64,000 bases of DNA, from the NCBI GenBank assembly GCA_025403435.1, contig CM046330.1, forward strand, positions 12,732,239 through 12,796,238, written 5' to 3'. A program made the position numbers and the translations under genes. Position 1 is the stretch's first letter, and each line of letters begins with the position of its first letter. The stretch comes from Artocarpus heterophyllus (taxonomy: Eukaryota > Streptophyta > Magnoliopsida > Rosales > Moraceae). Shown here piece by piece: positions 4,595 to 57,114 of this stretch. The notes beneath the pieces are model-generated. The model was given only the letters and a program-made list of their open reading frames with translations. It searched no databases and was not told the origin of the DNA.

Positions 4595-4610
4595 TCTCCC
4601 TCCAAATTTC

Positions 4611-9168: not shown

Positions 9169-15331
<6,163 letters not shown>

Positions 15332-29891: not shown

Positions 29892-32242
29892 TGTAACGCC
29901 CCTATATGGGGTTAACAGTTTTTAATGAGATAAAATAAAAATAAATAATAAAAGTAAAACCTTAAAAATAAAATTTGCCCGGGACTTAAATGAAAACTCT
30001 CAACTCAAAAATAAAAATATAAACGACAATAAACCACAGTTTAATGTAGCACCTTAAATTTAATAAAATAAACTGTTGTCATCATCATTTTAACCCTCAA
30101 CACATTGTAATACAGTCACAGAAAGTAACAATTGATGCTTACATTATCATGAAGAACATTCTCAACAATTGAAGCAGTCCCAATGTAATATAGCTACATC
30201 ACTTCCTCAACTATATTTCTCGTAGCCACCTCACACTTAGTGAGTCCTGAAAAGATATAAACATAAGGGAATGAGCAACACTATGCTCAGTAGAGAAAGC
30301 CATTACTCACCTCTATCATTACCACATTAAAATCTGCATGGTTAGTAAGTTACATCATATTCCAGATTATGAGGTTTATTATGATCACATCTTATGGATA
30401 CCGTAGTTAATCATTACCAAGTGTCATAATTACACATTTATACAAATATTACCAATCATCATTGTTCCTAGGTATCCATGTTAAATTGAGTATCACTCAA
30501 CTCATCGAAACCCAAATGGGCGCACTTGATCACCCTATAAACATTCCAAGGGTGTTCCGGTGAGGGGACATCAAGCCCCGAGTCCTCACCAAATCGATTC
30601 CTGTACAGTGTGTTCTGGGACTTTCAACCCAAGGAAGCGTCATCGCCTTCCCCCTACTTTTACCTTTTAGGGTATTCATGCCCAAGGACGTAACCGTCGC
30701 CCTCTTCATGTCTCACAATTTCTCTATATTAAATCATTATTAATAGAGTTAATTTTCCTAACCATGCTTCTCAATTTATAACATGTGTCAATTCATTATG
30801 TTCCTCGCCGTACAATACAAGACGAGTCCATGTCATAGTTTCATATGTGATACATCATATAATATCAGTTCAACATAGATATATATATATTGCGGCAAAA
30901 CAATCAATTTTAATTCTATAAAAACCTCACAAAAGATGAGTAATAGAATCCCTACCTTTCAAGCTTATCAACAATCTTTTAATCCTGGAATCAGTTAACG
31001 TTAGCTCCATACTCCCTTGATCCTAAGGCGTGCATAAGGACAATTAAAACTAAAGCACAACATACAACTACATTCATAAATAAATCATGTGTAAACCTAT
31101 CTTACTAGTATGCCATTAAAGCTTTTATATAAATCTCTTTTGAATACCACAGTAAACAATTTTTGTCTTAACACAATATAAAATGTGAACAAGTAATCTA
31201 TATGTTTTAGTCCCTAATAAGATTCATCAATCACTTAGGATAATATTGGAAAGGTTGCAAGACATTAAAGAATTAGGTGGTGAGCAAAGATGGGTTCTTG
31301 GTTCAGGTTAGCAGCTGGTATACCATAACAAACTGGCAGATTTACTAGTTTCCAATACAAAAATTGAATAATTCTTAGAAAATAAAATACAACTCCGATT
31401 TAGGTTTATGATAGCTCGTTAGAAAGCCTAGGATGCTACTTTTCAAATATGCAAACCAATTCATAAAATTCATTTTAATTTAATCTTAGAATTTCAAGAA
31501 ATAACCACTGCCCATAGAGGTATTACAAAGTTTAACAATATAAATTTTCTGTCTAGGGCATATACACTTAGACTTCATACATATGCTCCAAAATAGCAAC
31601 AAACATATACTTAGGTTTAAGAACGCAAATTTGAATAATCCTTTAGTATAAAAGAAAATTTATAAATGAAAGACTAAATTTGTTCATAAGATTCTAACCT
31701 CGGATTATGGTTAGTTGGAAGCTTGAAATGGCTTCAAAACAGGTTCCTTTACTTCGGTATGACTGAAATTCTTGCTCAAATGGAGGTGATGGTGGCTGAT
31801 TTTTATGGCTGCCTTGAAGAAGTTCTCTAAGTATTTTGCTTCAGCAAAGAAATGAGAAGAAGAGTGTGGGAACCGTGGAAGAGAAAGGAAGAAAAGATGA
31901 AGTCTTTGAAGAGAAGTGATAGAAACAATTATAGAGGAGACATGTTGAAGCATGTCACGGAGGAAATAAAGAAAATGAGGGTCAAGAGTAGTTGGAAAAG
32001 ATATCCTTATGTCTCATCTAAAGACTTTAACACACATAATGCCAATATGACATTTTTGAGATTTATTAGAAGTTCTAAGGCTTTTTAGTAATCATACTAA
32101 ATAAATATAGGAGAATTTTAGAAAATTTAAAAATAGATAAAAATAAATATTATAAAATAAATTTAAATGAAGCAATTTTTTTTATACATTAAAAATTAAT
32201 TTAATTACCTCAATACCCGTTAGGAGAATAACGGGTGTCACA
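29892..32242 (-). repeat. Element A 3' LTR
   Basis: The LTR is 2351 bp, bounded by TG...CA in sense. It contains a long non-domain frame (31711-31953 on the minus strand) found in all copies of this LTR. It keeps the segment between the two 'attcataaa' sites (31072 and 31459) that element B has lost. Confidence 0.88.
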
Positions 32243-32256
32243 GCTCTACCCCCCTT
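32243..32256 (-). other. Element A polypurine tract
   Basis: In sense this reads AAGGGGGGTAGAGC directly before the 3' LTR. It should prime plus-strand DNA synthesis. The sequence is the same as in element B. Confidence 0.75.
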
Positions 32257-33198
32257 AAAGAAATTTCGTCCTCGAAATTTCAATTCTAGCAATACTAGTA
32301 AAAATTATGATTCCACTATGATTCCAATTCTGAGTCTAAACCGTTAATGTTGTTTGTCCTCCAAATTTAAGTTATCGTATCTCCACTTATTTACTTGCAT
32401 AATAAATCTTACTCCTAAATCCCTCAATGAGAGTATTTCTGACAAGTTTCAACTTATAACACCGTATAATAGTCTAAGAATCTGATCAGGCATACATATT
32501 GACCATATCATGATTCCAGTCCTTCATTGTCCATGGACTGTGATTTACAATCACATTTAAGGAGATTGCCAGAGAAATTTTATATACTTCATCTTTAGGT
32601 TCCTTTTCCTTTTTGAGTAAGGAAAAGTCAAATATATTTGATTTCATACCTCAACTAATAAACTAAAACATAATCATAAAACATATATCACAAACACTTT
32701 TATTCAAAACTATACATTAAACTTACTCATAGAGATATTAAACGGAATCTCAGAGTTGCAAACATACCCGACATATTTTTCATTAAACAGCTATCCTCAT
32801 GACACAAACATTCAATCCCAAATAATATACTCATATTTCATATGGAATATCCCCATAACTGACTCTGGTACTTCCACATAATATTAACAGAATATTACAC
32901 ATTACAAACATAATACGGATACGTTTCGAGAGTACAAGGCACTCCGTATACCAGCTATCCATATCATGCATGCTTAGAGGATACAAAAACATCGATAAAC
33001 AAAAGATCGGACCTTAAGAAGGATGCGTTTCGAGAGCATCAAGTACTCCGTATCCAGCCATCCCGGCATTAGGCTCAATGAATCTAAAAGATTGAACAAC
33101 GACGTACCACAAGAAACACAGAATACAAGGCAAACGGTTATTCGTAACACACGAAATACGGACACACATGCCTACATGCCAAAGATAAAACAAAAAGA

Positions 33199-33888
33199 TT
33201 ACAGATGGAGATTCAAATCAATTGGCCGCTCCCGGCTTTCCCTTTCCCATTCAAGCTTGGATGTTGCAGTGTCGGATTCTGGATGTATGATTTGCATTTT
33301 ATCTATCAATTCCTCAGCTGTTGAAGCAGTGACAAAGATTTGTCTCTCCGATTCTGTAGTGATGTTTTCTTCCACAGCGTAATCTAGAAATTTCAAAAGA
33401 CCGTCATAAAAACCCTTTACGTTCAGCAGTCCCAAAGGTTTGGAATAAAAGCCCAACAATTGCCCACAAGCAACTATAAATATTTCCTCAAGAGTACCTA
33501 GACCACCAGGTAATGCTATAAAAGCATCAGAATTATAGATTATGTCTTTAAAATTTTTAGGGATACTCCTGACTCCTTCTCCCTTACCTATGGCTTCCTT
33601 ACAAAGGTTTCCTTCAACTGGAATATGAGGCCAAATTCTTACATCAGTAGCGTCGCTAGACCTAGCTGCTAGTGCCATATTTACCATCATTTTTATACTA
33701 CCACCCCCATAGATTATGTTAATCTTCTTGCGTGCTAGGACTTGCCCTAAGTGATTTGCAGCTTCTAAATAAGCTTTATCTTTTCCAAGGCTGGAACCAC
33801 AAAAGACACAGACATTCTTTATTTTCTTCGTGGACTGGGAGGTAGACATATTTGGTTTATAGAAGTGGTTGCTTAATGTCTGCTCCAC
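33199..33888 (-). CDS. LOG-like protein in retrotransposon A
   Basis: A 229-aa frame with no introns. It has the Rossmann-like LOG/lysine-decarboxylase-like fold signatures: VCVFCGSSLGKDKAY (26-40), IIYGGGSIKMM (58-68), SDAFIALPGGLGTLEE (120-135, holding the PGGxGTxxE motif) and KPLGLLNVKGFYDGLL (150-165). True LOG enzymes cut ribose-5-phosphate from cytokinin nucleotides in the cytosol. Here the helix before SDAF reads IPKNFKDI where LOGs have an Arg-Lys-Ala-Glu helix, so the catalytic Arg appears replaced, and GLMG after GGGS is replaced by KMMV. Plant LOG genes normally have several introns, so this looks like a captured, diverged cDNA. Translation may start at Met1 or Met14. Enzyme activity is doubtful. 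Confidence 0.75.
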   Translation of the reverse strand: MEQTLSNHFYKPNMSTSQSTKKIKNVCVFCGSSLGKDKAYLEAANHLGQVLARKKINIIYGGGSIKMMVNMALAARSSDATDVRIWPHIPVEGNLCKEAIGKGEGVRSIPKNFKDIIYNSDAFIALPGGLGTLEEIFIVACGQLLGFYSKPLGLLNVKGFYDGLLKFLDYAVEENITTESERQIFVTASTAEELIDKMQIIHPESDTATSKLEWERESRERPIDLNLHL

Positions 33889-34493
33889 TTAGACTTCGGG
33901 TTCTACATGAGATTTTAAAGATGAGAAATATACAAAAAGGGCTAAAGAGATAGACGAGTAGGTAATGAAAAGGTAATCCAAAGATTTAAACAAAATCTTG
34001 TGCGGATAAGAAAGTAAGATAAGGTGATTGATAGTTTACAGAAAATCTGATTCACTTTTTGAAAAAGATTAGACTCTAATTGTATAACTTTTGACAATTG
34101 AGAACAATTCGACAGAAGACCCTCATGACACAACTGTAGACTTTTTGACAAATATACACCAAGTCTAGAAATTTAATATAAACGACAAATACTGTAGAAC
34201 TTTTGAAATTTGAGACACAAATCTTGAAATATCTGGATAAGCTTTTTCAAAATTCAAACATATTACTGTACCGTATGTAACGTGTCTGATAAGATAATAT
34301 ATTTTATTATATATATATTTAAGAAAATCATAAATTAAATAAGATATTAACACTTACTGTATCAATCTAATAATCACAATTATTTCAAACACAAAAGCAA
34401 ATATTCTGAGTAAAAGAAAAACACAAACTGTTGAACATCAGCTAAAACTGCTTCAAATAAGTAAAGACTAAATAACCTTTATAGAGCGATGAC

Positions 34494-35015
34494 TTATTCC
34501 CCATCCAGTTTTCTTATGGCTTGGCAAACAGGATCTAGAAATACCATATTCCTGAGGCGTTGTCTTTCTGTATAAAATTTAGGCCAGAGTTTAAAAATAG
34601 CTCCTTGAACATATCCACTAGGGTGACCGTGGAGAGGAGGATGGATGCTATCCAAGTTCTCCTTTGAAAGTCCATCCCTACAAAACCTTATTTTATCCTC
34701 TCTATTCGTAGACATATAACCAGGTGAAGTACATTTACCGTTACAATTTTGTCTTCCACATTTGTTACAAGTGACCACGATGGCACGAGCTCTTCTTTTC
34801 ATTGCACTACGACTGGTACCTGTTCCTGGTAAACCGACATCTTGACTAAAGTCACTCGGACGGATTTTCCCCTCTATTAACATTCTCACATCACAAGGGA
34901 TACCAAAACGCATAAGAATCCACAACCGAGTAATTCTAGCCTTGTATTTCTTTCTGAGAATCTTTTGGGAGAGTGATGGGAAATACTTTCTCAGGTGTTG
35001 GTACTTTGGGTCCAT
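34494..35015 (-). CDS. Basic Cys-rich 173-aa protein of retrotransposon A
   Basis: An intact frame of unknown function, upstream of the LOG-like frame in element sense. Residues 1-60 are Lys/Arg/Leu-rich. A basic run SAMKRRARAIVV (about 70-81) leads into C-x2-C-x4-C-x3-C (TCNKCGRQNCNGKCTSPGY, about 82-100) and then IRFCRDGL. An Arg-rich segment followed directly by a compact four-Cys knuckle is reminiscent of nucleic-acid-binding proteins, including the small Cys-rich proteins of some plant RNA viruses (Carla_C4 type). That resemblance is weak and made by eye. It is not a retroviral CCHC knuckle. Copy B differs at only two residues. Confidence 0.6.
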   Translation of the reverse strand: MDPKYQHLRKYFPSLSQKILRKKYKARITRLWILMRFGIPCDVRMLIEGKIRPSDFSQDVGLPGTGTSRSAMKRRARAIVVTCNKCGRQNCNGKCTSPGYMSTNREDKIRFCRDGLSKENLDSIHPPLHGHPSGYVQGAIFKLWPKFYTERQRLRNMVFLDPVCQAIRKLDGE

Positions 35016-36483
35016 GATGAGATGAAAGAAGAGTAAATAGAAAGGAAAAATTAAGATAGTAAATTGCAGAATCCTAGAATTCCTTCTTCTTTTAGAGGAA
35101 AAGAAGAATTTCTAATGAAAAAGAAGAGGATTTGCGATTTAGAGAGAAAATAACAAATTAAGAGAGAAAAAGTGAACTCGGAGAAATAAGCTCCTATGCA
35201 CAGTAAACGTATATGTAAACAATGATTAAACCACTGTATATGACACGTATAGAGACCACGTGGGAGAGACAGTGTGAATCAAACTGATTTAAGATTTGAA
35301 CTAGGCCCAAATGTTCTAAGTTGAAAATGGTCAGGTTGTTTCGGGCCTTAACACATTTAGAACAAGTTAAATAACAAACATAAAATTGAAAACCAATTCG
35401 TATGAATCTTAAACCCAATTCAAAGCCCACTATAGATAAAGTTAACTATAAACAACAAATCTAATTTAACGACAACAAGGATCTTCCTGAATGATATTTA
35501 AAATCATTTCATAACAACATAATCTTCCAGCAACTAGAATAATTTTGTTTTAATCAAAACCTTATTGAACAATACATACACCCATATGTTATTCATAATA
35601 CTTAACATCTATCAATGGATTCATCATCATTGCTACCAAGGGTTTAGAATGTGACTAACCTTGAAATCAATACGATTTACGTCTTTCAACGTAGACCATA
35701 TCAACGAACAAAGACACTTGATGTTACTACTTAAGAACATCTACAATCCCCACAATTCTACTCATACAATATATAATTTCCTCATATAACAAAACCGTAG
35801 GTAACCAAAAGATTCACTGATACACTTAAATACAATGTACGTAACGAAATATTCTAATTTTGAGATTCATGCATTCTAGACTTTACACAGTCTCAATAGA
35901 CCAAAAGTCTAACATTTATCTCTCTCAAGATTCAATACCATGATTCCCAACTTATATCATATTCCTCAAATATATAGAACTTTTAAGAAAAGACATTGAC
36001 ACTTATGTGCTCCATCGAATCCACACATAATCATTACTTAGGTTTGAATCAATTACGAAAAATTTGGCATATCTATGTCCAAACTTTAAAATCAATAAAT
36101 CAAGCCTTATATTTCTCATTGTTTTTCACGAGACAAAAGGCTTTTAAATCCTCTTATCTATACGAATTTCTCATCGTTTATACGAATTAGATATGCTTAT
36201 AGATCCAAATATTATACGAATCTCTCATAAGCAATCTACTTATAAACTCATTCCATATAATTATCATTCCCTTATAACTATTAATACTTTCCTTCTATAT
36301 AATTATTGTACTCATATAACTATTAATATTTTCATTCTATGGCCTTTCCATGTTACATCCTTCTAGACTGTATAAATCAATGTGAAGGTTCATTTTGATG
36401 ATGACAATAAAATTCAGCTTCAAAACCATCTCAAAAATATATTTTTTAAAGTGGTGCTACACTCCCTAGGTTAACCGAACCTA

Positions 36484-36498
36484 GGCTCTGATATCCAA
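36484..36498 (-). other. Element A primer-binding site (mutated)
   Basis: In sense this reads TTGGATATCAGAGCC just after the 5' LTR. Element B and element C have TTGGTATCAGAGCC, complementary to the 3' end of initiator tRNA-Met. Copy A carries one extra base inside the site. Confidence 0.7.
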
Positions 36499-36504
36499 AA
36501 ATTC

Positions 36505-38854
36505 TGTAACGCCCCTATATGGGGGTTAACAGTTTTTAATAAGATAAAATAAAAATAAATAATAAAAGTAAAACCTTAAAAATAAAATTTGTCCGGGACT
36601 TAAATGAAAACTCTCAACTCAAAAATAAAAATATAAACGATAATTAAACCACAGTTTAATGTAGCACCTTAAATTTAATAATATAAACTGTTGTCATCAT
36701 CATTTTAACCCTCATCACATTGTAATACAGTCACAGAAAGTAACAATTGATGCTTACATTATCATGAAGAACATTCTCAACAATTGAAGCAGTCCCAATG
36801 TAATATAGCTACATCACTTCCTCAACTATATTTCTCGTAGCCACCTCACACTTAGTGAGTCCTGAAAAGATATAAACATAAGGGAATGAGCAACACTATG
36901 CTCAGTAGAGAAAGCCATTACTCACCTCTATCATTACCACATTAAAATCTGCATGGTTAGTAAGTTACATCATATTCCAGATTATGAGGTTTATTATGAT
37001 CACATCTTATGGATACCGTAGTTAATCATTACCAAGTGTCATAATTACACATTTATACAAATATTACCAATCATCATTGTTCCTAGGTATCCATGTTAAA
37101 TTGAGTATCACTCAACTCATCGAAACCCAAATGGGCGCACTTGATCACCCTATAAACATTCCAAGGGTGTTCCGGTGAGGGGACATCAAGCCCCGAGTCC
37201 TCACCAAATCGATTCCTGTACAGTGTGTTCTGGGACTTTCAACCCAAGGAAGCGTCATCGCCTTCCCCCTACTTTACCTTTTAGGGTATTCATGCCCAAG
37301 GACGTAACCGTCGCCCTTTTCATGTCTCACAATTTCTCTATATTAAATCATTATTAATAGAGTTAATTTTCCTAACCATGCTTCTCAATTTATAACATGT
37401 GTCAATTCATTATGTTCCTCGCCGTACAATACAAGACGAGTCCATGTCATAGTTTCATATGTGATACACATATAATATCAGTTCAACATAGATATATATA
37501 TATTGCGGCAAAACAATCAATTTTAATTCTATAAAAACCTCACAAAAGATGAGTAATAGAATCCCTACCTTTCAAGCTTATCAACAATCTTTTAATCCTG
37601 GAATCAGTTAACGTTAGCTCCATACTCCCTTGATCCTAAGGCGTGCATAAGGACAATTAAAACTAAAGCACAACATACAACTACATTCATAAATAAATCA
37701 TGTGTAAACCTATCTTACTAGTATGCCATTAAAGCTTTTATATAAATCTCTTTCGAATACCACAGTAAACAATTTTTGTCTTAACACAATATAAAATGTG
37801 AACAAGTAATCTATATGTTTTAGTCCCTAATAAGATTCATCAATCACTTAGGATAATATTGGAAAGGTTGCAAGACATTAAAGAATTAGGTGGTGAGCAA
37901 AGATGGGTTCTTGGTTCAGGTTAGCAGCTGGTATACCATAACAAACTGGCAGATTTACTAGTTTCCAATACAAAAATTGAATAATTCTTAGAAAATAAAA
38001 TACAACTCCGATTTAGGTTTATGATAGCTCGTTAGAAAGCCTAGGATGCTACTTTTCAAATATGCAAACCAATTCATAAAATTCATTTTAATTTAATCTT
38101 AGAATTTCAAGAAATAACCACTGCCCATAGAGGTATTACAAAGTTTAACAATATAAATTTTCTGTCTAGGGCATATACACTTAGACTTCATACATATGCT
38201 CCAAAATAGCAACAAACATATACTTAGGTTTAAGAACGCAAATTTGAATAATCCTTTAGTATAAAAGAAAATTTATAAATGAAAGACTAAATTTGTTCAT
38301 AAGATTCTAACCTCGGATTATGGTTAGTTGGAAGCTTGAAATGGCTTCAAAACAGGTTCCTTTACTTCGGTATGACTGAAATTCTTGCTCAAATGGAGGT
38401 GATGGTGGCTGATTTTTATGGCTGCCTTGAAGAAGTTCTCTAAGTATTTTGCTTCAGCAAAGAAATGAGAAGAAGAGTGTGGGAACCGTGGAAGAGAAAG
38501 GAAGAAAAGATGAAGTCTTTGAAGAGAAGTGATAGAAACAATTATAGAGGAGACATGTTAAGCATGTCACGGAGGAAATAAAGAAAATGAGGGTCAAGAG
38601 TAGTTGGAAAAGATATCCTTATGTCTCATCTAAAGACTTTAACACACATAATGCCAATATGACATTTTTGAGATTTATTAGAAGTTCTAAGGCTTTTTAG
38701 TAATCATACTAAATAAATATAGGAGAATTTTAGAAAATTTAAAAATAGATAAAAATAAATATTATAAAATAAATTTAAATGAAGCAATTTTTTTTATACA
38801 TTAAAAATTAATTTAATTACCTCAATACCCGTTAGGAGAATAACGGGTGTCACA
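36505..38854 (-). repeat. Element A 5' LTR
   Basis: This 2350-bp LTR is nearly identical to the one at 29892-32242. Differences are scattered single substitutions and one- or two-base indels. It retains the segment between 'attcataaa' sites at 37685 and 38072. Confidence 0.88.
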
Positions 38855-39345: not shown

Positions 39346-41312
39346 TGTAACACCCGTATTTTTAACGGGCATAATTTTGTAAAATTTAATGAATAAAATG
39401 TGACTATTTAAAATTACTAAGTTGTTTATGATCATTTAAAAAAAATACCATTTTAGTATTTTCTTACCAAGTCTTCCTAAGAAACATTCAAAACTTACCA
39501 ACACTTACTTCTACCAATCTTGTCTCCCTAAATTATTGCTCAATTATATAGACTTCTTCTCATTTTGCTAAAGGTATCCGAAGGGGACATTGAATTATTT
39601 TCCGTCAATTCATAGAAGACATGGAGATATTTCTCAACCACCTAATTAATTATTTCCTTATCTTCTTCTATAATTCACTCCAATTATCCCCTCAATTATG
39701 TTGGCATTATTTGCTAAAAGTCTTCATGGGAGACAAGATGATATTTTCCTTTAAGACTCTTTTGTTTCTTCTTACAACTTTTTCCCCGTAAACATCTCAT
39801 TCCTCTTAAGCATTTTGATATCTTTTTATTTAACTATCACCACCTTCTTCTCTAGTTCTCATTCTCTCCCTTCTCACTTCAAATTTCTAACTAAAGACAT
39901 AGAGCACAAAGCTCTCTTTGTGGCCAAGACAATTATAATTCCCAACGATGATCGAGGCGGTTTTAAAGTTAATTCAAGCTTGATTGATAACCCAAACTTT
40001 GGTGCTTTTCAAAGAAGTTTTGAGGTAGGTTTTCTTTAATCTAAACTTAGTTTTTAGTATGCATTTTCTCCATGTTTAATGCATAAAAATACTTTAATGG
40101 CACTAGTAGACGGGTTTACACATAACTCACTTATGAATGTGATTATACGTTGTGCTTTAGTTTTAATTGTCCTTATGCATGCCTTAGGGTCAAGGATGTG
40201 TGGAGCTAACGTTAATTGATTCCAGGATTAAAAGATTGTTGATAAGCTTGAAAGGTAGGGATTCTATTACTCATTTTTGTGAGGTTTTTATAGAATTAAA
40301 ATTGATTGTTTTGCCGCAATATATATATATCTATGTTGAACTGATATTATATGAGTATCACATATGAAACTATGACATGGACTCGTCTTGTATTGTACGG
40401 CGAGGAACATAATGAATTGACATATGTTATAAATTGAGAAGCATGGTTAGGAAAACTGACTCTATTAATAATGATTTAATATAGAGAAATGGTGAGACAT
40501 GAAGAGGGCGGCGGTTACGTCCTTGGGCATGAATACCCAAAAAGGTAAAATAGGGGGAAGGTGATGACGCTTCCTTGGGTTGAAAGTCCCAGAACACACT
40601 GTACAGGAATTGATTTGGTGAGGACTCGGGGCTTGATGTCCCCTCACCGGAACACCCTTGGAATGTTTATGGGGTGATCAAGTGCGCCCATTTGGGTTTC
40701 GATGAGTTGAGTGATACTCAATTTAACATGGATACCTAGGAACAATGATGATTGGTAATATTTGTATAAATGTGTAATTATGACACTTGGTAATGATTAA
40801 CTACGGTATCCATAAGATGTGATCATAATAAACCTCATAATCTGGAATATGATGTAACCTACTAACCATGCAGTTTTTAATGTGGTAATGGATAAACCAT
40901 AAGGTGAGTCATGATTTCCCTACTGGGCATGTCGATGCTCATCCCTATCATATCTTCATATCTCAGGTGGAACTCAGTGCAACATATTTGAAGAGGAATA
41001 AGCGAAAACAATCCTGCTGTTTTCGTGTTAGAAGACCCTGTTTAATTACAACTTATCTACAACATGTAAGAGTTGTATTATTTTTTTTTATGGCTGTGTT
41101 AAGTTATTTGGGAATTGTACTATGGTGATGATGACTGTAATTATATATATTTGGTGCTACACTAAAAACTGTGGTTTGTATTTAAAACGTTTATTTTTAT
41201 TTTTCTTGTTGTTTAAAGACCCATGGGCATTGTTTAATTGATTTAAATAATATAAAATTTAAAATTATTTTTATTTATTTAAAACTGTTAACCCCCACAT
41301 AGGGGTGTTACA
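39346..41312 (+). repeat. Element C 5' LTR
   Basis: This 1967-bp LTR has TG...CA ends. From about 40130 to its end it is clearly related to the LTRs of elements A and B (for example 'agctaacgttaattgattcc', and 'ttgccgcaatatatatat'), while the first part (U3 side) is different. Confidence 0.92.
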
Positions 41313-41319
41313 GAATTTT

Positions 41320-41337
41320 TGGTATCAGAGCCTAGGT
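41320..41337 (+). other. Element C primer-binding site
   Basis: TGGTATCAGAGCCTAGGT lies seven bases after the 5' LTR and is complementary to the 3' end of plant initiator tRNA-Met. Confidence 0.85.
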
Positions 41338-41463
41338 TCGATTAACCTAGGGGGTATAGCACCACCTTAAAAATTAATCTTTGGGAATGGTTTTAAAGTT
41401 AGGTGTTAATGTCATCATCATTTGGTACTGATCCTAGTTAAATTTTCGCAGCCAGTAGAAACT

Positions 41464-46161: not shown

Positions 46162-46203
46162 CATTGTAATCAGTGTACGAAATTGCGAGGACGAAATTTT
46201 TAT

Positions 46204-46216
46204 AGGAGGGGAGAGC
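46204..46216 (+). other. Element C polypurine tract
   Basis: AGGAGGGGAGAGC lies directly before the 3' LTR. It is preceded by 'cgaggacgaaattt', which elements A and B also have at this place. Confidence 0.8.
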
Positions 46217-48181
46217 TGTAACACCCGTATTTTTAACGGGCATAATTTTGTAAAATTTAATGAATAAAATGTGACTATTTAAAATTACTAAGTTGTTTAT
46301 GATCATTTAAAAAAAATACCATTTTAGTATTTTCTTACCAAGTCTTCCTAAGAAACATTCAAAACTTACCAACACTTACTTCTACCAATCTTGTCTCCCT
46401 AAATTATTGCTCAATTATATAGACTTCTTCTCATTTTGCTAAAGGTATCCGAAGGGGACATTGAATTATTTTCCGTCAATTCATAGAAGACATGGAGATA
46501 TTTCTCAACCACCTAATTAATTATTTCCTTATCTTCTTCTATAATTCACTCCAATTATCCCCTCAATTATGTTGGCATTATTTGCTAAAAGTCTTCATGG
46601 GAGACAAGATGATATTTTCCTTTAAGACTCTTTTGTTTCTTCTTACAACTTTTCTCCGTAAACATCTCATTCCTCTTAAGCATTTTGATATCTTTTTATT
46701 TAACTATCACCACCTTCTTCTCTAGTTCTCATTCTCTCCCTTCTCACTTCAAATTTCTAACTAAAGACATAGAGCACAAAGCTCTCTTTGTGGCCAAGAC
46801 AATTATAATTCCCAACGATGATCGAGGCGGTTTTAAAGTTAATTCAAGCTTGATTGATAACCCAAACTTTGGTGCTTTTCAAAGAAGTTTTGAGGTAGGT
46901 TTTCTTTAATCTAAACTTAGTTTTTAGTATGCATTTTCTCCATGTTTAATGCATAAAAATACTTTAATGGCACTAGTAGACGGGTTTACACATAACTCAC
47001 TTATGAATGTGATTATACGTTGTGCTTTAGTTTTAATTGTCCTTATGCATGCCTTAGGGTCAAGGATGTGTGGAGCTAACGTTAATTGATTCCAGGATTA
47101 AAAGATTGTTGATAAGCTTGAAAGGTAGGGATTCTATTACTCATTTTTGTGAGGTTTTTATAGAATTAAAATTGATTGTTTTGCCGCAATATATATATAT
47201 CTATGTTGAACTGATATTATATGAGTATCACATATGAAACTATGACATGGACTCGTCTTGTATTGTACGGCGAGGAACATAATGAATTGACATATGTTAT
47301 AAATTGAGAAGCATGGTTAGGAAAACTGACTCTATTAATAATGATTTAATATAGAGAAATGGTGAGACATGAAGAGGGCGGCGGTTACGTCCTTGGGCAT
47401 GAATACCCAAAAAGGTAAAATAGGGGGAAGGTGATGACGCTTCCTTGGGTTGAAAGTCCCAGAACACACTGTACAGGAATTGATTTGGTGAGGACTCGGG
47501 GCTTAATGTCCCCTCACCGGAACACCCTTGGAATGTTTATGGGGTGATCAAGTGCGCCCATTTGGGTTTCGATGAGTTGAGTGATACTCAATTTAACATG
47601 GATACCTAGGAACAATGATGATTGGTAATATTTGTATAAATGTGTAATTATGACACTTGGTAATGATTAACTACGGTATCCATAAGATGTGATCATAATA
47701 AACCTCATAATCTGGAATATGATGTAACCTACTAACCATGCAGTTTTTAATGTGGTAATGGATAAACCATAAGGTGAGTCATGATTTCCCTACTGGGCAT
47801 GTCGATGCTCATCCCTATCATATCTTCATATCTCAGGTGGAACTCAGTGCAACATATTTGAAGAGGAATAAGCGAAAACAATCCTGCTGTTTTCGTGTTA
47901 GAAGACCCTGTTTAATTACAACTTATCTACAACATGTAAGAGTTGTATTATTTTTTTTATGGCTGTGTTAAGTTATTTGGGAATTGTACTATGGTGATGA
48001 TGACTGTAATTATATATATTTGGTGCTACACTAAAAACTATGGTTTGTATTTAAAACGTTTATTTTTATTTTTCTTGTTGTTTAAAGACCCATGGGCATT
48101 GTTTAATTGATTTAAATAATATAAAATTTAAAATTATTTTTATTTATTTAAAACTGTTAACCCCCACATAGGGGTGTTACA
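46217..48181 (+). repeat. Element C 3' LTR
   Basis: This 1965-bp LTR is nearly identical to the 5' LTR. Visible differences are a change in the 'ttttcccc' run, one G/A at 'gggcttRatgtcc', one T fewer in the T-run near 47950, and one G/A near 48050. Confidence 0.92.
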
Positions 48182-48326
48182 TTTTTTGTTAATATTTCAT
48201 AGAAGAGGATGAATAAATGTCAAGTTTTAAAGTCTGTGGGACACAATTTTACAAAGGCTTTATAGTTGAGAGGGAATTTTTGTAGTTAATACAAGTTAAA
48301 ATTATACTACGTGCTATGATTATAGG
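48182..48326. other. Short spacer between element C and a hAT element
   Basis: AT-rich DNA with no recognised feature. Confidence 0.5.
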
Positions 48327-48839
48327 CAGTGACAAAGCTAAAAAATTTATTTGAGGCGGGGGCTTCAGTTAAATTGAAATTTTAAACTAAATTAATATTG
48401 TAATAAATACTTAAAGTCCTATAACTTTTTTTGCTTAATATTTTTTTAATTGGTCAATGGATATATATTTTTCTTTAAATATAAAAACTTACGTAGTATT
48501 GTATGATCATTTTTTATTTAGATTTTTTTGTTATTATGTATATAAGAAAAAATATAAAAGTAAATACTAAAAGTGTAAATAAAAATTTTAAAACTATTTG
48601 CTTAGAATTTAAAATTATGAATAAGTAGGTGGTGATATTACATAAAATTGGGAAAAATTATAAAATTAAAAAAATTAATAATAAGATCATTGTTTGCAAT
48701 TAAAACAATTTTAGGGAGGTAAATGAGAAAGAATTAAAATAAATAGTATAAATTTTATAGAAATAAAAAGTATATATAATTAAGGGGTTGGGTCTGAGGG
48801 GCTTGAGCCTGCACTAGGTCCAAGCTCCCTTCGTCACTA
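48327..48839. mobile_element. Non-autonomous hAT element with perfect 8-bp duplication
   Basis: Termini CAGTGACAAAGCT and, in reverse from the right, TAGTGACGAAGGG are inverted. The flanks are identical 8-mers, attatagg (48319-48326 and 48840-48847). The element is 513 bp and AT-rich, with a GC-richer right end. It has no coding capacity. Ends of the CAGTGRCGRAG type recur in plant hAT MITEs. Confidence 0.75.
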
Positions 48840-48911
48840 ATTATAGGAAAAAAATTGAAATATAGCAGTTTTTATAGAATACTTTAAGACTTGTTTATAG
48901 AATTACATAAT

Positions 48912-50884
48912 TGTGACACCCGTTATTCTCCTAACGGGTATTGAGGTAATTAAATTAATTTTTAATGTATAAAAAAAATTGCTTCATTTAAATTTATTTT
49001 ATAATATTTATTTTTATCTATTTTTAAATTTTCTAAAATTCTCCTATATTTATTTAGTATGATTACTAAAAAGCCTTAGAACTTCTAATAAATCTCAAAA
49101 ATGTCATATTGGCATTATATGTGTTAAAGTCTTTAGATGAGACATAAGGATATCTTTTCCAACTACTCTTGACCCTCATTTTCTTTATTTCCTCCGTGAC
49201 ATGCTTCAACATGTATCCTCTATAATTGTTTCTATCACTTCTCTTCAAAGACTTCATCTTTTCTTCCTTTCTCTTCCACGGTTCCCACACTCTTCTTCTC
49301 ATTTCTTTGCTGAAGCAAAATACTTAGAGAACTTCTTCAAGGCAGCCATAAAAATCAGCCACCATCACCTCCATTTGAGCAAGAATTTCAGTCATACCGA
49401 AGTAAAGGAACCTATTTTGAAGCCATTTCAAGCTTCCAACTAACCATAATCCGAGGTTAGAATCTTATGAACAAATTTAGTCTTTCATTTATAAATTTTC
49501 TTTTATACTAAAGGATTATTCAAATTTGCGTTCTTAAACCTAAGTATATGTTTGTTGCTATTTTGGAGCATATGTATGAAGTCTAAGTGTATATGCCCTA
49601 GACAGAAAATTTATATTGTTAAACTTTGTAATACCTCTATGGGCAGTGGTTATTTCTTGAAATTCTAAGATTAAATTAAAATGAATTTTATGAATGTAGT
49701 TGTATATTGTGCTTTAGTTTTAATTGTCCTTATGCACGCCTTAGGATCAAGGGAGTATGGAGCTAACGTTAATTGATTCCAGGATTAAGAGACTGTTGAT
49801 AAGCTTAAAAGGTAGGGATTCTATTACTCATCTTTTGTGAGGTTTTTATAGAATTAAAATTGATTGTTTTGCTGCAATATATATATATCTATGTTGAACT
49901 GATATTATATGTGTATCACATATGAAACTATGATATGGACTCGTCTTGTATTGTACGGCGAGGAACATAATGAATTGACACATGTTATAAATTGAGAAGC
50001 ATGGTTAGGAAAACTAACTCTATTGATAATGATTCAATATAGAGAAATTGTGAGACATGAAGAGGGCGACGGTTACGTCCTTGGGCATGAATACCCTAAA
50101 AGGTAAAATAGGGGGAAGGCGATGACGCTTCCTTGGGTTGAAAGTCCCAGAACACACTGTACAGGAATCGATTTGGTGAGGACTCGGGGCTTGATGTCCC
50201 CTCACCGGAACACCCTTGGAATGTTTATAGGGTGATCAAGTGCGCCCATTTGGGTTTCGATGAGTTGAGTGATACTCAATTTAACATGGATACCTAGGAA
50301 CAATGATGATTGGTAATATTTGTATAAATGTGCAATTATGACACTTGGTAATGATTAACTACGGTATCCATAAGATGTGATCATAATAAACCTCATAATC
50401 TGAAATATGATGTGACTTACTAACCATGCAGATTTTAATGTGGTAATGATAAAAACCTAAAGGTGGGTAATGGCTTTCTCTACTGAGCATAGTGTCGCTC
50501 ATTCCCTTATGTTTATATCTTTTCAGGACTCACTAAGTGTGAGGTGGCTACGAGAAATATAGTTGAGGAAGCGATGTAACTATATTACATTGGGACTGCT
50601 CAATTGTAAAGAATGTTCTTCATGATAATGTAAGCATCAATTGTTACTTTCTGTGACTGTAATTATAATGTGTTGAGGGTTAAAATGATGATGACAACAG
50701 TTTATATTATTAAATTTAAGGTGCTACATTAAAACTGTGGTTTATTTATCGTTTATATTTTTATTTTTGAGTTGAGAGTTTTCATTTAAGTCCCGGGTAA
50801 ATTTTATTTTTAAGGTTTTACTTTTATTATTTATTTTTATTTTATCTCATTAAAAACTGTTAACCCCCATATAGGGGCGTTACA
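48912..50884 (+). repeat. Element B 5' LTR
   Basis: This 1973-bp LTR runs TGTGACACCCG ... GGGGCGTTACA. The joint of the deletion relative to A lies at 'tttatgaatgtagttg' (about 49688-49703). Confidence 0.9.
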
Positions 50885-50891
50885 GAATTTT

Positions 50892-50909
50892 TGGTATCAG
50901 AGCCTAGGT
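50892..50909 (+). other. Element B primer-binding site
   Basis: TGGTATCAGAGCCTAGGT lies seven bases after the LTR, identical to that of element C and complementary to initiator tRNA-Met. Confidence 0.85.
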
Positions 50910-52371
50910 TCGGTTAACCTAGGGAGTGTAGCACCACTTTAAAAAAATATATTTTTGAGATGGTTTTGAAGCTGAATTTTCATTGTCATCATCAAAATGA
51001 ACCTTCACATTGATTTATACAGTCTAGAAGGATGTAACATGGAAATGCCATAGAATGAAAATATCAATAGTTATATGAGTACAATAATTATATAGAAGGA
51101 AAGTATTAATAGTTATGAGGGAATGATAATTATATGGAATGAGTTTATAAGTAGATTGCTTATGAGAGATTCGTATAATATTTGGATCTATAAGCATATC
51201 TAATTCGTATAAACGATGAGAAATTCGTATAGATACGAGGATTTAAGAGCCTTTTGTCTCGTGAAAAACAATAAGAAATATAAGGCTTGATTTATTGATT
51301 TTAAAGTTTGACATAGATATGCCAAATTTTTCGTAATTGATTCAAACCTAAGTAATGATTATGTGTGGATTCGATGGAGCACATAAGTGTCAATGTCTTT
51401 TCTTAAAAGTTCTATATATTTGAGGAATATGATATAAGTTGGGAATCATGGTATTGAATCTTGAGAGAGATAAATGTTAGACTTTTGGTCTGTTGAGACT
51501 GTGTAAAGTCTAGAATGCATGAATCTCAAAATTGGAATATTTTGTTACGTACATTGTATTTAAGTGTATCAGTGAATCTTTTGGTTACCTAAGGTTTTGT
51601 TATATGAGGAAATTATATATTGTATAAGTAGAATTGTGGAGATTGTAGATGTTCCTAAGTAGTAACATCTAGTGTCTTTGTTCGTTGATATGGTCTACGT
51701 TGAAAGACGTAAATCGTATTGATTTCAAGGTTAGTCGCATTCTAAACCCTTGGTAGTAATGATAATGAATCCATTGATAGATGTTGAGTATTATCAATAA
51801 CATATGGGTGTATGTATTGTTCAATAAGGTTTTGATTAAAACAAAATTATTTGAGTTGCTGGAAGATTGTGTTGTTATGAAATGATTTTAAATATCATTC
51901 AGGAAGATCCTTGTTGTCGTTAAATTAGATTTGTTGTTTATAGTTAACTTTATCTATAGTGGGCTTTGAATTGGGTTTAAGATTCATATGAATTGGTTTT
52001 CAATTTTATGTTTGTTATTTAACTCGTTCTAAATGTGTTAAAGCCGAAACAACCTGACCATTTTCAACTAAGAACATTTGGGCCTAGTTCAAATCTTAAA
52101 TCAGTTTGATTCACACTGTCTCTCCCACGTGGTCTCTATACGTGTCATATACAGTGGTTTAATCATTGTTTATATATACGTTTACTGTGCATAGGAGCTT
52201 ATTTCTCCGAGTTCACTTTTTCTCTCTTAATTTGTTATTTTCTCTCTAAATCGCAAATCCTCTTCTTTTTCATTAAAAATTCTTCTTTTCTCTAAAAGAA
52301 GAAGGAATTCTAGGATTCTGCAATTTACTATCTTAATTTTTCCTTTCTATTTACTCTTCTTTCATCTCATC

Positions 52372-52893
52372 ATGGACCCAAAGTACCAACACCTGAGAAA
52401 GTATTTCCCATCACTCTCCCAAAAGATTCTTAGAAAGAAATACAAGGCTAGAATTACTCGGTTGTGGATTCTTATGCGTTTTGGCATCCCTTGTGATGTG
52501 AGAATGTTAATAGAGGGGAAAATCCGTCCGAGTGACTTTAGTCAAGATGTCGGTTTACCAGGAACAGGTACCAGTCGTAGTGCAATGAAAAGAAGAGCCC
52601 GTGCCATCGTAGTCGCTTGTAACAAATGTGGAAGACAAAATTGTAACGGTAAATGTACTTCACCTGGTTATATGTCTACGAATAGAGAGGATAAAATAAG
52701 GTTTTGTAGGAATGGACTTTCAAAGGAGAACTTGGATAGTATCCATCCTCCTCTCCACGGTCACCCTAGTGGATATGTTCAAGGAGCTATTTTTAAACTC
52801 TGGCCTAAATTTTATACAGAAAGACAACGCCTCAGGAATATGGTATTTCTAGATCCTGTTTGCCAAGCCATAAGAAAACTGGATGGGGAATAA
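52372..52893 (+). CDS. Basic Cys-rich 173-aa protein of retrotransposon B
   Basis: Collinear copy of the frame at 34494-35015. It differs at two residues: Thr to Ala just before the first Cys of the C-x2-C-x4-C-x3-C cluster, and Asp to Asn in IRFCRNGL. All Cys residues are kept. The upstream 1.49 kb of interior has no long frame, so this would be the first protein of a transcript starting in the 5' LTR. Function unknown; a nucleic-acid-binding role is suggested by the basic run and Cys cluster only. Confidence 0.6.
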   Translation: MDPKYQHLRKYFPSLSQKILRKKYKARITRLWILMRFGIPCDVRMLIEGKIRPSDFSQDVGLPGTGTSRSAMKRRARAIVVACNKCGRQNCNGKCTSPGYMSTNREDKIRFCRNGLSKENLDSIHPPLHGHPSGYVQGAIFKLWPKFYTERQRLRNMVFLDPVCQAIRKLDGE

Positions 52894-53497
52894 GTCATCG
52901 CTCTATAAAGGTTATTTAGTCTTTGCTTATTTGAAGCAGTTTTAGCTGATGTTCAACAGTTTGTGTTTTTCTTTTACTCAGAATATTTGCTTTTGTGTTT
53001 GAAATAATTGTGATTATTAGATTGATACAGTAAGTGTTAATATCTTATTTAATTTATGATTTTCTTAAATATATATATAATAAAATATATTATCTTATCA
53101 GACACGTCACATACGGTACAGTAATATGTTTGAATTTTGAAAAGCTTATCCAGATATTTCAAGATTTGTGTCTCAAATTTCAAAAGTTCTACAGTATTTG
53201 TCGTTTATATTAAATTTCTAGACTTGGTGTATATTTGTCAAAAAGTCTACAGTTGTGTCATGAGGGTCTTCTGTCAAATTGTTCTCAATTGTCAAAAGTT
53301 ATACAATTAGAGTCTAATCTTTTTCAAAAAGTGAATCAGATTTTCTGTAAACTATCAATCACCTTATCTTACTTTCTTATCCGCACAAGATTTTGTTTAA
53401 ATCTTTGGATTACCTTTTCATTACCTACTCGTCTATCTCTTTAGCCATTTTTGTATATTTCTCATCTTTAAAATCTCATATAGAACCCGAAGTCTAA

Positions 53498-54187
53498 GTG
53501 GAGCAGACATTAAGCAACCACTTCTATAAACCAAATATGTCTACCTCCCAGTCCACGAAGAAAATAAAGAATGTCTGTGTCTTTTGTGGTTCCAGCCTTG
53601 GAAAAGATAAAGCTTATTTAGAAGCTGCAAATCACTTAGGGCAAGTCCTAGCACGCAAGAAGATTAACATAATCTATGGGGGTGACAGTATAAAAATGAT
53701 GGTAAATATGACACTAGCAGCTAGGTCTAGCGACGCTACTGATGTAAGAATTTGGCCTCATATTCCAGTTGAAGGAAACATTTGTAAGGAAGCCATAGGT
53801 AAGGGAGAAGGAGTCAGGAGTATCCCTAAAAATTTTAAAGACATAATCTATAATTCTGATGCTTTTATAGCATTACCTGGTGGTCTAAGTACTCTTGAGG
53901 AAATATTTATAGTTGCTTGTGGGCAATTGTTGGGCTTTTATTCCAAACCTTTGGGACTGCTGAACGTAAAGGGTTTTTATGACGGTCTTTTGAAATTTCT
54001 AGATTACGCTGTGGAAGAAAACATCACTACAGAATCGGAGAGACAAATCTTTGTCACTGCTTCAACAGCTGAGGAATTGATAGATAAAATGCAAATCATA
54101 CATCCAGAATCCGACACTGCAACATCCAAGCTTGAATGGGAAAGGGAAAGCCGGGAGCGGCCAATTGATTTGAATCTCCATCTGTAA
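53498..54187 (+). CDS. LOG-like protein in retrotransposon B (motifs damaged)
   Basis: A 229-aa intronless frame, collinear with the copy in A and differing at four residues: Gly63 to Asp (GGG to GGD after IIY), Ala72 to Thr, Leu95 to Ile, Gly131 to Ser (PGGLGT to PGGLST). Gly63 and Gly131 belong to the two nucleotide-binding signatures of the LOG family, so this copy is very unlikely to be an active phosphoribohydrolase. The frame is still open. It follows the Cys-rich frame by about 600 bp, which may include an intron or simply a second cistron. Confidence 0.7.
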   Translation: MEQTLSNHFYKPNMSTSQSTKKIKNVCVFCGSSLGKDKAYLEAANHLGQVLARKKINIIYGGDSIKMMVNMTLAARSSDATDVRIWPHIPVEGNICKEAIGKGEGVRSIPKNFKDIIYNSDAFIALPGGLSTLEEIFIVACGQLLGFYSKPLGLLNVKGFYDGLLKFLDYAVEENITTESERQIFVTASTAEELIDKMQIIHPESDTATSKLEWERESRERPIDLNLHL

Positions 54188-55128
54188 TCTTTTTGTTTTA
54201 TCTTTGGCATGTAGGCATGTGTGTCCATATTTCGTGTGTTACGAATAACCGTTTGCCTTGTATTATGTGTTTCTTGTGGTACGTCGTTGTTAAATCTTTT
54301 AGATTCATTGAGCCTAATGCCGGGATGGCTGGATACGGAGTACTTGATGCTCTCGAAACGCATCCTTCTTAAGGTCCGATCTTTTGTTTATCGATGTTTT
54401 TGTATCCTCTAAGCATGCATGATATGGATAGCTGGTATACGGAGTGCCTTGTACTCTCGAAACGTATCCGTATCATGTTTGTAATGTGTAATATTCTGTT
54501 AATATTATGTGGAAGTACCAGAGTCAGTTATGGGGATATTCCATATGAAATATGAGTATATTATTTGGATTGAATGTTTGTGTCATGAGGATAGCTGTTT
54601 AATGAAAAATATGCCGGGTATGTTTGCAACTCTGAGATTCCGTTTAATATCTCTATGAGTAAGTTTAATGTATAGTTTTGAATAAAAGCGTTTGTGATAT
54701 ATGTTTTATGATTATGTTTTAGTTTATTAGTTGAGGTATGAAATCAAATATATTTGACTTTTCCTTACTCAAAAAGGAAAAGGAACCTAAAGATGAAGTA
54801 TATAAAATTTCTCTGGCAATCTCCTTAAATGTGATTGTAAATCACAGTCCATGGACAATGAAGGACCGGAATCATGATATGGTCAATATGTATGCCTGAT
54901 TAGATTCTTAGACTATTATACGGTGTTATAAGTTGAAACTTGTCAGAAATACTCTTATTGAGGGATTTAGGAGTAAGATTTATTATGCAAGTAAATAAGT
55001 GGAAATACGATAACTTAAATTTGGAGGACAAACAACATTAACGGTTTAGACTCAGAATTGGAATCATAGTGGAATCATAATTTTTACTAGTATTGCTAGA
55101 ATTGAAATTTCGAGGACGAAATTTCTTT

Positions 55129-55142
55129 AAGGGGGGTAGAGC
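55129..55142 (+). other. Element B polypurine tract
   Basis: AAGGGGGGTAGAGC lies directly before the 3' LTR, preceded by 'cgaggacgaaatttc'. Confidence 0.8.
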
Positions 55143-57114
55143 TGTGACACCCGTTATTCTCCTAACGGGTATTGAGGTAATTAAATTAATTTTTAATGTA
55201 TAAAAAAAATTGCTTCATTTAAATTTATTTTATAATATTTATTTTTATCTATTTTTAAATTTTCTAAAATTCTCCTATATTTATTTAGTATGATTACTAA
55301 AAAGCCTTAGAACTTCTAATAAATCTCAAAAATGTCATATTGGCATTATATGTGTTAAAGTCTTTAGATGAGACATAAGGATATCTTTTCCAACTACTCT
55401 TGACCCTCATTTTCTTTATTTCCTCCGTGACATGCTTCAACATGTATCCTCTATAATTGTTTCTATCACTTCTCTTCAAAGACTTCATCTTTTCTTCCTT
55501 TCTCTTCCACGGTTCCCACACTCTTCTTCTCATTTCTTTGCTGAAGCAAAATACTTAGAGAACTTCTTCAAGGCAGCCATAAAAATCAGCCACCATCACC
55601 TCCATTTGAGCAAGAATTTCAGTCATACCGAAGTAAAGGAACCTGTTTTGAAGCCATTTCAAGCTTCCAACTAACCATAATCCGAGGTTAGAATCTTATG
55701 AACAAATTTAGTCTTTCATTTATAAATTTTCTTTTATACTAAAGGATTATTCAAATTTGCGTTCTTAAACCTAAGTATATGTTTGTTGCTATTTTGGAGC
55801 ATATGTATGAAGTCTAAGTGTATATGCCCTAGACAGAAAATTTATATTGTTAAACTTTGTAATACCTCTATGGGCAGTGGTTATTTCTTGAAATTCTAAG
55901 ATTAAATTAAAATGAATTTTATGAATGTAGTTGTATATTGTGCTTTAGTTTTAATTGTCCTTATGCACGCCTTAGGATCAAGGGAGTATGGAGCTAACGT
56001 TAATTGATTCCAGGATTAAGAGACTGTTGATAAGCTTAAAAGGTAGGGATTCTATTACTCATCTTTTGTGAGGTTTTTATAGAATTAAAATTGATTGTTT
56101 TGCTGCAATATATATATATCTATGTTGAACTGATATTATATGTGTATCACATATGAAACTATGATATGGACTCGTCTTGTATTGTACGGCGAGGAACATA
56201 ATGAATTGACACATGTTATAAATTGAGAAGCATGGTTAGGAAAACTAACTCTATTGATAATGATTCAATATAGAGAAATTGTGAGACATGAAGAGGGCGA
56301 CGGTTACGTCCTTGGGCATGAATACCCTAAAAGGTAAAATAGGGGGAAGGCGATGACGCTTCCTTGGGTTGAAAGTCCCAGAACACACTGTACAGGAATC
56401 GATTTGGTGAGGACTCGGGGCTTGATGTCCCCTCACCGGAACACCCTTGGAATGTTTATAGGGTGATCAAGTGCGCCCATTTGGGTTTCGATGAGTTGAG
56501 TGATACTCAATTTAACATGGATACCTAGGAACAATGATGATTGGTAATATTTGTATAAATGTGTAATTATGACACTTGGTAATGATTAACTACGGTATCC
56601 ATAAGATGTGATCATAATAAACCTCATAATCTGAAATATGATGTGACTTACTAACCATGCAGATTTTAATGTGGTAATGATAAAAACCTAAAGGTGGGTA
56701 ATGGCTTTCTCTACTGAGCATAGTGTCGCTCATTCCCTTATGTTTATATCTTTTCAGGACTCACTAAGTGTGAGGTGGCTACGAGAAATATAGTTGAGGA
56801 AGCGATGTAACTATATTACATTGGGACTGCTCAATTGTAAAGAATGTTCTTCATGATAATGTAAGCATCAATTGTTACTTTCTGTGACTGTAATTATAAT
56901 GTGTTGAGGGTTAAAATGATGATGACAACAGTTTATATTATTAAATTTAAGGTGCTACATTAAAACTGTGGTTTATTTATCGTTTATATTTTTATTTTTG
57001 AGTTGAGAGTTTTCATTAAGTCCCGGGTAAATTTTATTTTTAAGGTTTTACTTTTATTATTTATTTTTATTTTATCTCATTAAAAACTGTTAACCCCCAT
57101 ATAGGGGCGTTACA
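55143..57114 (+). repeat. Element B 3' LTR
   Basis: This 1972-bp LTR is almost identical to the 5' LTR. Differences noticed are one A/G at 'cctRttttgaagcc', one C/T at 'gtgYaattatg' and one A fewer in 'tcatttaag'. Confidence 0.9.

Follow-up and report, generated by a model that had tools for sequence, protein, structure and literature searches.

A selected CYS-LOG gene pair carried by a non-autonomous LTR retrotransposon family of Artocarpus heterophyllus

Background

Non-autonomous derivatives of long terminal repeat (LTR) retrotransposons, such as the large retrotransposon derivatives (LARDs) typified by Dasheng, have LTRs, a primer binding site and a polypurine tract, lack gag-pol, are present in many copies, and are presumed to be mobilised in trans. 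Steinbauerova et al. reportedly described, in 2011, two Athila-like elements resembling LOGL4, a member of the LONELY GUY (LOG) family. A later paper that cites their work records a YgdH (LOG) domain in consensus sequences of Gypsy elements from two Citrus species and, without the count filter, from poplar (Populus) (PMC9289625). On the viral side, the cysteine-rich proteins (CRPs) of mandariviruses and allexiviruses combine a zinc-finger motif with one for nuclear localisation, and local silencing is suppressed by one CRP from a mandarivirus (PMC12172455). Here we describe two LTR elements, A and B, in a window of 64,000 nucleotides of the Artocarpus heterophyllus genome (GCA_025403435.1, contig CM046330.1, positions 12,732,239 to 12,796,238 of the forward strand; all coordinates below refer to this window), whose interiors carry a cassette of two genes maintained by selection, one for a CRP-like zinc-finger protein (CYS) and one for a LOG-like protein (LOG).

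Results

Elements A (29892..38854, minus strand) and B (48912..57114, plus strand) lie in opposite orientation. The 5' and 3' LTRs of A (36505..38854, 2350 nt, and 32242 back to 29892, that is 29892..32242, 2351 nt; both minus strand) differ by 7 substitutions in 2348 positions and represent a 2.35-kb variant, and those of B (48912..50884, 1973 nt, and 55143..57114, 1972 nt; both plus strand) differ by 2 in 1972 and represent a 1.97-kb variant. A perfect ATAAT target duplication flanks B on both sides, and that of A is 5 bp long with one mismatch. The primer binding site of B, TGGTATCAGAGC (50892..50903, plus strand), which we take to be of the tRNA-Met type, lies 3' of the 5' LTR and recurs in the chromovirus-like element discussed below; a polypurine tract lies 5' of the 3' LTR. 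The primer site of A (36484-36497) differs from that of B by one base. Paired LTRs, target duplications, a primer site and a polypurine tract identify these as LTR retrotransposons.

Within both elements the only open reading frames (ORFs) of at least 120 amino acids are CYS and LOG, of 173 and 229 amino acids, both in sense orientation. CYS occupies 34494..35015 (minus strand) in A and 52372..52893 (plus strand) in B. The LOG frame opens with GTG and has its first ATG at codon 14, so the likely protein has 216 amino acids, encoded at 33199..33849 (minus strand) in A, where the frame is open to 33888, and at 53537..54187 (plus strand) in B. Gag-pol is absent from the interiors of A and B, which are therefore not autonomous.

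The sequence-only reading of this DNA had described A and B as complete LTR elements with primer site and polypurine tract, and the LTRs, the target duplications and the two sites of B were all recovered. Its statement that they are near-identical is borne out by the 4.26-kb interiors with their two frames (4262 nt in A, 4258 nt in B) and needs correcting for the LTRs, whose variants differ in length (2.35 versus 1.97 kb). The 229-residue LOG-like protein is LOG-like by PF03641 and TIGR00730, although probably shorter given its GTG start, and the Cys-rich protein, open in both copies, had been a side note there yet makes up half of the cassette. That reading also proposed a genome search with the interior for further copies, and named a LOG-like frame confined to A and B as an outcome that would refute it; a search of the 985-Mb assembly of 334 contigs showed that the frame is not so confined. 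The interior of B gave at least 36 long matches, B among them, at 97–100% identity (36 of 3986 candidates scored), and the LOG protein of A gave 150 scored matches (of 6183 candidates), every one of them identical over all 229 residues; A thus has the usual LOG protein of the LTR family to which A and B belong, here called family I, and these copy counts are lower bounds.

For comparison within family I we used 37 copies, namely A and B together with 35 further long matches to the interior of B. LOG is open in 35 of the 37 and CYS likewise in 35, in a sample where broken copies are under-represented because it consists of A and the best DNA matches to B. In one copy (L032) the CYS alignment breaks off 2 nt ahead of the stop codon; this copy was scored as not open and excluded from the CYS substitution counts. 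Both LTRs could be delimited in 19 of 22 element-sized stretches (L011, L014 and L016 were left out); 12 of the 19 show no substitution between their LTRs (three of these with small gaps), the maximum is 0.3% (A), and the 5-bp target duplications are perfect in 18. By the plant substitution rates that we assume, the measured copies are at most ~0.2 million years old. The family is thus large and non-autonomous, and A and B are young members of it. The 2.35-kb LTR variant, found also in L012, L017 and L028, exceeds that of B by ~365 nt, corresponding to 31081-31445 in A, and has both ends in common with it; insertion, loss and recombination between LTR types are candidate origins.

The two frames are constrained as proteins. 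Mean pairwise dN/dS (NG86) among open copies of family I is 0.20 for LOG and 0.13 for CYS. Counted as distinct variants, LOG has 19 silent and 23 replacement changes and 2 stops (replacement-to-silent ratio 1.21 against a neutral 2.49, P = 0.016), and CYS has 22 silent and 15 replacement changes and 1 stop (0.68 against an expected 2.54, lower than in all 2000 simulations); neither gene shows a depletion of stop codons (P = 0.89 for LOG, 0.51 for CYS). Variants present in two or more family I copies comprise 19 silent and 8 replacement changes in the two genes together (P = 8e-6), of which CYS contributes 12 and 4 (P = 1.4e-4) and LOG 7 and 4 (P = 0.017), whereas single-copy variants are closer to neutral (22 silent and 30 replacement, stops excluded, P = 0.02). 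Such a contrast is what one would expect with constraint acting on source copies and drift on inserted ones. Between families (the divergent families II and III are described below), dN/dS is 0.20–0.28 for LOG (dS 0.88–1.55) and 0.07–0.16 for CYS (dS 1.11–1.61, plus one saturated comparison at dS 4.86 that yields the 0.07), and pN/pS is 0.26–0.49 in frame against 0.70–1.77 in out-of-frame controls. The cassette is under purifying selection both within and between families. An alignment of 21 interiors (L016 left out) contains no indels in 1173 ORF columns, 3 in 1561 columns of spacer and 3' region, and 24 in the 5' region; the spacer and 3' region being nearly as gap-free as the ORFs, we dropped the absence of indels as strong evidence.

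Other elements of the same genome carry the cassette too. A genome query with 56 residues of Arabidopsis LOG, taken from a solved structure (150 of 728 candidates scored), matched exon by exon what are probably the host LOG genes, at 59–95% identity (68–95% for the clearest), and, separately from these, gave many single-frame matches at 37–47%. Six divergent loci (L044 to L049) were picked by hand from the single-frame matches, and in all six CYS is followed by LOG in the same order, with 54–75% (CYS) and 50–63% (LOG) amino-acid identity to A over the longest segments. At the DNA level they fall into two groups, family II (L046, L047, L048 and L049) and family III (L044 and L045). Decay is visible in the truncated CYS of L044 and the damaged frames of L047, L048 and L049. 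At least 51 of the 60 top family III LOG matches are preceded, within 6 kb and on the same strand, by CYS, at a median start-to-start distance of 1183 nt; this is a lower bound because L044, one of the nine others, does carry CYS. Family II is small, with five LOG copies at 90% identity or more, followed by copies of 65–78%, many with stops. Judging from these loci, CYS-LOG is an old intronless cassette that predates family I and is carried by other types of transposon as well.

What carries the cassette outside family I can be read in part from the flanking DNA. In family III, at least 88 of 107 gag-protease matches are followed by CYS or LOG at a distance of up to 6 kb (68 CYS, 71 LOG, 51 both), and 19 have neither among the matches listed; the LOG list used in this count was the listing of LOG matches with six rows added by hand from the Arabidopsis-piece search. 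The Pfam match of the family III protease is weak (E = 0.03), and from the protease sequence we take the family III carrier to be probably Athila-type. In L044, ~640 nt separate CYS from the end of the frames for the protease and an acidic tail, and the gag-pol protein of the window, used as query, found no reverse transcriptase (RT) in this 6.6-kb stretch. In both L044 and L045 the protease frame is followed by that acidic tail, which has no Pfam match, where RT would come.

The edge of family II shows, on the opposite strand, CTAG and T directly after a GC-rich hairpin, which fits what we take to be the rule for Helitron 3' ends (a hairpin and a CTAG end). Among 45 genomic matches to this edge, 31 end at query positions 257-263, the terminus predicted by the rule being 258, and all six family II LOGs of 88% identity or more have, by eye, an edge match within 3 kb; other edge matches have no listed LOG nearby. 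The carrier of family II is thus apparently Helitron-like; a Helitron may simply have picked up the cassette there. At L050-L046-L051 (C17:24136700-24143700) the family II cassette lies between two direct repeats, 81% identical, of the Helitron-like terminal region. Taken by its flanks, the same gene pair is found in one other kind of mobile element and apparently in two.

A candidate for the helper of family I lies between A and B. This Ty3/gypsy element with a chromodomain-like end (39346..48181, plus strand), recognised by its Pfam domains and by LTRs that are 99.7% identical, has a frame of 1579 amino acids (41422-46161, plus strand) with Gag, protease, RT, RNase H and integrase, and a chromodomain match below the Pfam cut-off. 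Only ~55 nt separate the pol stop from the 3' LTR, so there is no extra ORF after pol. B matches it at 83% identity over 1327 nt spanning the primer site, the leader and a portion of the LTR, and again at 83% over 69 nt at the end with the polypurine tract. With these shared cis sequences the chromovirus-like element is a candidate helper, and packaging and reverse transcription of A and B in trans are predicted.

CYS resembles the CRPs of plant RNA viruses. The zinc-finger motif CX2CX4CX3C, preceded by a basic stretch, shows no change in any of 36 family I copies and is also intact in L045 and L046; one Cys is lost in L044. Carla_C4 (PF01623) matches the CYS of L046 above the cut-off (E = 5.1e-5, score 23.6 versus 20.9) and that of L045 below it (E = 0.0023, score 18.3); Viral_NABP (PF05515) matches both below its own cut-off (3.9e-4 and 5.5e-4, respectively). 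The Carla_C4 cut-off is thus passed in one of the three families (II), and that of Viral_NABP by none of A, L045 and L046. None of 10 shuffled controls matched either family. This likeness may reflect common descent or convergence, and transfer may have gone in either direction. A match of CYS to a sugar dehydrogenase in NCBIfam (6e-4) was set aside as chance, its score of 19 bits lying below the cut-off of 430.

The LOG of A matches PF03641 (E = 1e-21) and, over its whole length, TIGR00730 (E = 7e-38), and scores 85 against a cut-off of 300 in the NCBI equivalog model. Relatives outside this genome were drawn from papers, Pfam, solved structures and a bacterial scan. The closest solved relative of the element LOGs is Arabidopsis At2g37210, at 49% identity (190 bits with L046, compared with 163 for the Pseudomonas protein). 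A bacterial donor is unsupported, the best 80 of 531 confirmed bacterial matches being 42–48% identical and hence no closer than At2g37210. In a tree that includes two LOGs each from Arabidopsis and from bacteria, the element LOGs, 51–62% identical between families, form one clade (support 100), in which families I and II stand together against III (support 98).

The active site has diverged in family I. PGGLGTLEE, an instance of the PGGxGTxxE motif, is present in 35 of the 37 copies, GGGSxGLMG is replaced by GGGSIKMM in 35 (GGGSIKMMV in A), and the arginine of MHxRK, which we take to be the catalytic residue, is Asn in all 37, with SIPKNFKDI there in 33. B alone has two further glycines of the nucleotide motif changed. 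Because the change is family-wide, we regard it as a trait of family I under continued, weaker constraint and not as the decay of one copy. L044, L045 and L046 keep both GGGSxGLMG and the arginine; L047 keeps the arginine with GGGSxGLMG altered, and L048 has His for the arginine and an altered GGGSxGLMG. With the catalytic arginine lost, classical cytokinin activation is doubtful in A and B, where the LOG fold more likely binds a ligand or uses a changed substrate; the LOGs of L046, L044 and L045 could release active cytokinin.

These results also bear on what the sequence-only reading had said of LOG. Its view that the family retains a diverged homologue of LOG as it transposes is upheld by the many copies, the open frames and the low dN/dS, and the refuting outcome that it had named, broken frames in all copies with dN/dS near 1 in the LOG-like and Cys-rich frames, did not materialise (0.20 and 0.13). 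The LOG tree that it proposed yielded the single element clade, with Arabidopsis and bacterial LOGs as the other taxa. Its idea that family I itself captured a spliced LOG transcript is not supported as it stands, LOG having arrived together with CYS in an older intronless cassette and the element LOGs being one clade; the intronless LOG fits an RNA-level capture that predates A and B.

Two non-coding features accompany the genes. Two tandem stem-loops lie 3' of LOG in families I, II and III (L044 to L047 and L049), at 32911..33063 (minus strand, bounds set by eye) in A and at 54323-54365 and 54418-54477 (plus strand) in B, and were not detected in L048. In an alignment of nine distinct stem-loops, to which loci may contribute both their first and their second loop and whose structure comes from one of the nine, 96.3% of pair cells are standard pairs against at most 57.4% when the structure is slid, 5 of 12 pairs are changed on both sides, and covariation is 0.412 against at most 0.160; four of five measures were equalled or exceeded in 0 to 3 of 500 shuffles, and the number of pair types in 219 of 500. 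Rfam gave four weak matches in the interior of B, none at its family cut-off. As a guess, the stem-loops might serve packaging or stability, perhaps as a target of CYS. A spacer block between CYS and LOG (53178..53305 in B, plus strand) is 75–79% identical in L046, L047 and L049 and 71% in L048, with no match in L044 or L045, and the spacer around it does not align with the family II loci.

Elsewhere in the window, 9169-15382 and 3929-4795 (minus strand) hold candidate host exons, by recognition only, of a JmjC / C2H2 zinc-finger demethylase (REF6-like) and a CCCH zinc-finger gene.

Discussion

Our preferred explanation, to which we assign a probability of roughly 0.6, is that the family of A and B consists of elements with a selected two-gene cassette, predicted to be mobilised by the Gag-Pol of a chromovirus-like element, and that the cassette is likely kept because its proteins aid the spread of its carriers. 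The element would be transcribed from the LTR or from an internal promoter, and its RNA would be packaged and reverse-transcribed in trans by the Gag-Pol of the candidate helper. The CYS protein would bind nucleic acid and, like related viral CRPs, dampen RNA silencing or change host transcription; the LOG protein would act on a cytokinin nucleotide or a related ligand; and by helping the element to spread the two proteins would secure the retention of the cassette. That such help is likely follows from the same pair riding in one, and apparently two, other kinds of mobile element.

Several observations count against this explanation. The CYS of A and B stays below both viral cut-offs (for A, Carla_C4 E = 0.1, score 13.0; Viral_NABP E = 0.0096), the CYS alignment, when run against viral contigs, hit 16 pattern-matching stretches, none confirmed, and thus no relative, and the AlphaFold models of CYS and LOG (pLDDT 40 and 34) are too poor for use. 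The LOG of A and B has lost active-site residues and evolves fast, on the longer branch from the I/II split (0.39, compared with 0.15 for L046). The signal from LOG variants is modest both for distinct variants (P = 0.016) and for shared variants of LOG alone, the lowest CYS ratio between families is a saturated value, the lack of indels in the ORFs carries little weight, and the sampling of family I favours intact copies.

A more ambitious proposal, which we put forward tentatively and consider a good deal less probable, would make the cassette a counter-host module traded among classes of plant transposons. A virus-type silencing suppressor, CYS, would be coupled to a LOG-fold protein that steers cytokinin signalling, and the two would give transposition a phase of unsilenced, dividing cells; the genes would belong to a pool shared by RNA viruses and transposons, and the LOG of A and B would be a non-catalytic sensor or decoy.

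Selection could instead belong to the host, if a selected host CYS-LOG pair had been captured repeatedly by different transposons. Gene capture is frequent in plant transposons, according to the excerpts of PMC13317346, and our genome searches were filled with element copies, so that a host copy did not get a clean look, a further point against the explanation that we prefer. Such repeated capture is nevertheless unlikely, since the probable host LOG exons reach 59–95% identity to Arabidopsis LOG, exon by exon, whereas the element LOGs are a single clade at 51–62%, and since selection is visible inside the recent burst of family I too. Less probable again is that LOG produces active cytokinin in the host cell in every family, also in that of A and B: PGGLGTLEE in 35 of 37 copies and the whole-length TIGR00730 match speak for it, but the Asn in place of the MHxRK arginine and GGGSIKMMV in place of GGGSxGLMG in A, changes that are family-wide, and the equivalog score of 85 against 300 tell the other way. 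We give very little credence to the frames being inert passengers, open merely through the youth of their copies; the LTR divergence of 0–0.3% in the 19 measured copies and the near-neutral single-copy variants would suit it, yet shared variants are poor in replacements (P = 8e-6) and dN/dS is 0.07–0.28 between families at dS of 0.9 or more. The least credible alternative is that the cassette is kept for RNA signals such as stem-loops and packaging sequences, the proteins being immaterial, because, for all the covarying stem-loop pair and the conserved spacer block, constraint tracks the reading frame (pN/pS 0.26–0.49 in frame, 0.70–1.77 out of frame) and most other non-coding sequence of family I cannot be aligned with II or III.

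Non-autonomous LTR elements are commonly regarded as empty parasites. Here a high-copy family keeps two selected protein genes, one of them virus-like, which suggests that accessory genes directed at the host travel in plant transposons and are exchanged across element classes. It also provides two concrete proteins for testing, in a family young enough that transposition is perhaps still ongoing.

Comparison with known systems

The presence of LOG in Athila-like elements is already published. In the accessible portions of the literature on LOG and captured genes in LTR elements, LOG in Athila, CRPs and silencing, and CRPs and retrotransposons, we found no CRP-like gene in a transposon, no cassette and no chromovirus-type family, and a term look-up in PMC7264820 and PMC6317226 found neither YgdH nor LONELY GUY. 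The Athila-like Ty3/gypsy elements share with our loci a LOG-domain ORF in a plant Ty3/gypsy element, and family III looks like this kind; a CRP-like partner, a cassette, a test of selection and a change of carrier are not described in the excerpts of PMC9289625. A and B differ from them in being non-autonomous and in having LTRs of a chromovirus-like element. They are like Dasheng and other LARDs in their LTRs, primer site, polypurine tract, lack of gag-pol, copy number and presumed mobilisation in trans, but a LARD has a long interior without coding capacity, and theirs holds two long protein genes that are under selection and open in 35 of 37 copies each.

Flexivirus CRPs (Carla_C4, Viral_NABP) share with CYS a zinc-finger motif in a basic protein, and there is the Pfam match of the family II homologue; those proteins are viral, whereas CYS resides in transposons and is likened to them by motif presence and Pfam score. 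Maize Bs1 and other gene-transducing LTR elements also hold host-type gene sequence within an LTR element, but Bs1 has partial host segments, as given in the excerpts of PMC13317346, and the cassettes of families I to III are full-length genes shared across divergent families. The LTR elements of bdelloid rotifers have, by the excerpts of PMC5408684, the same accessory ORFs in unrelated lineages, some of them virus-derived; they keep gag and pol and involve other genes, whereas here two genes move together. The cassette of A and B belongs with the accessory ORFs of plant LTR retrotransposons.

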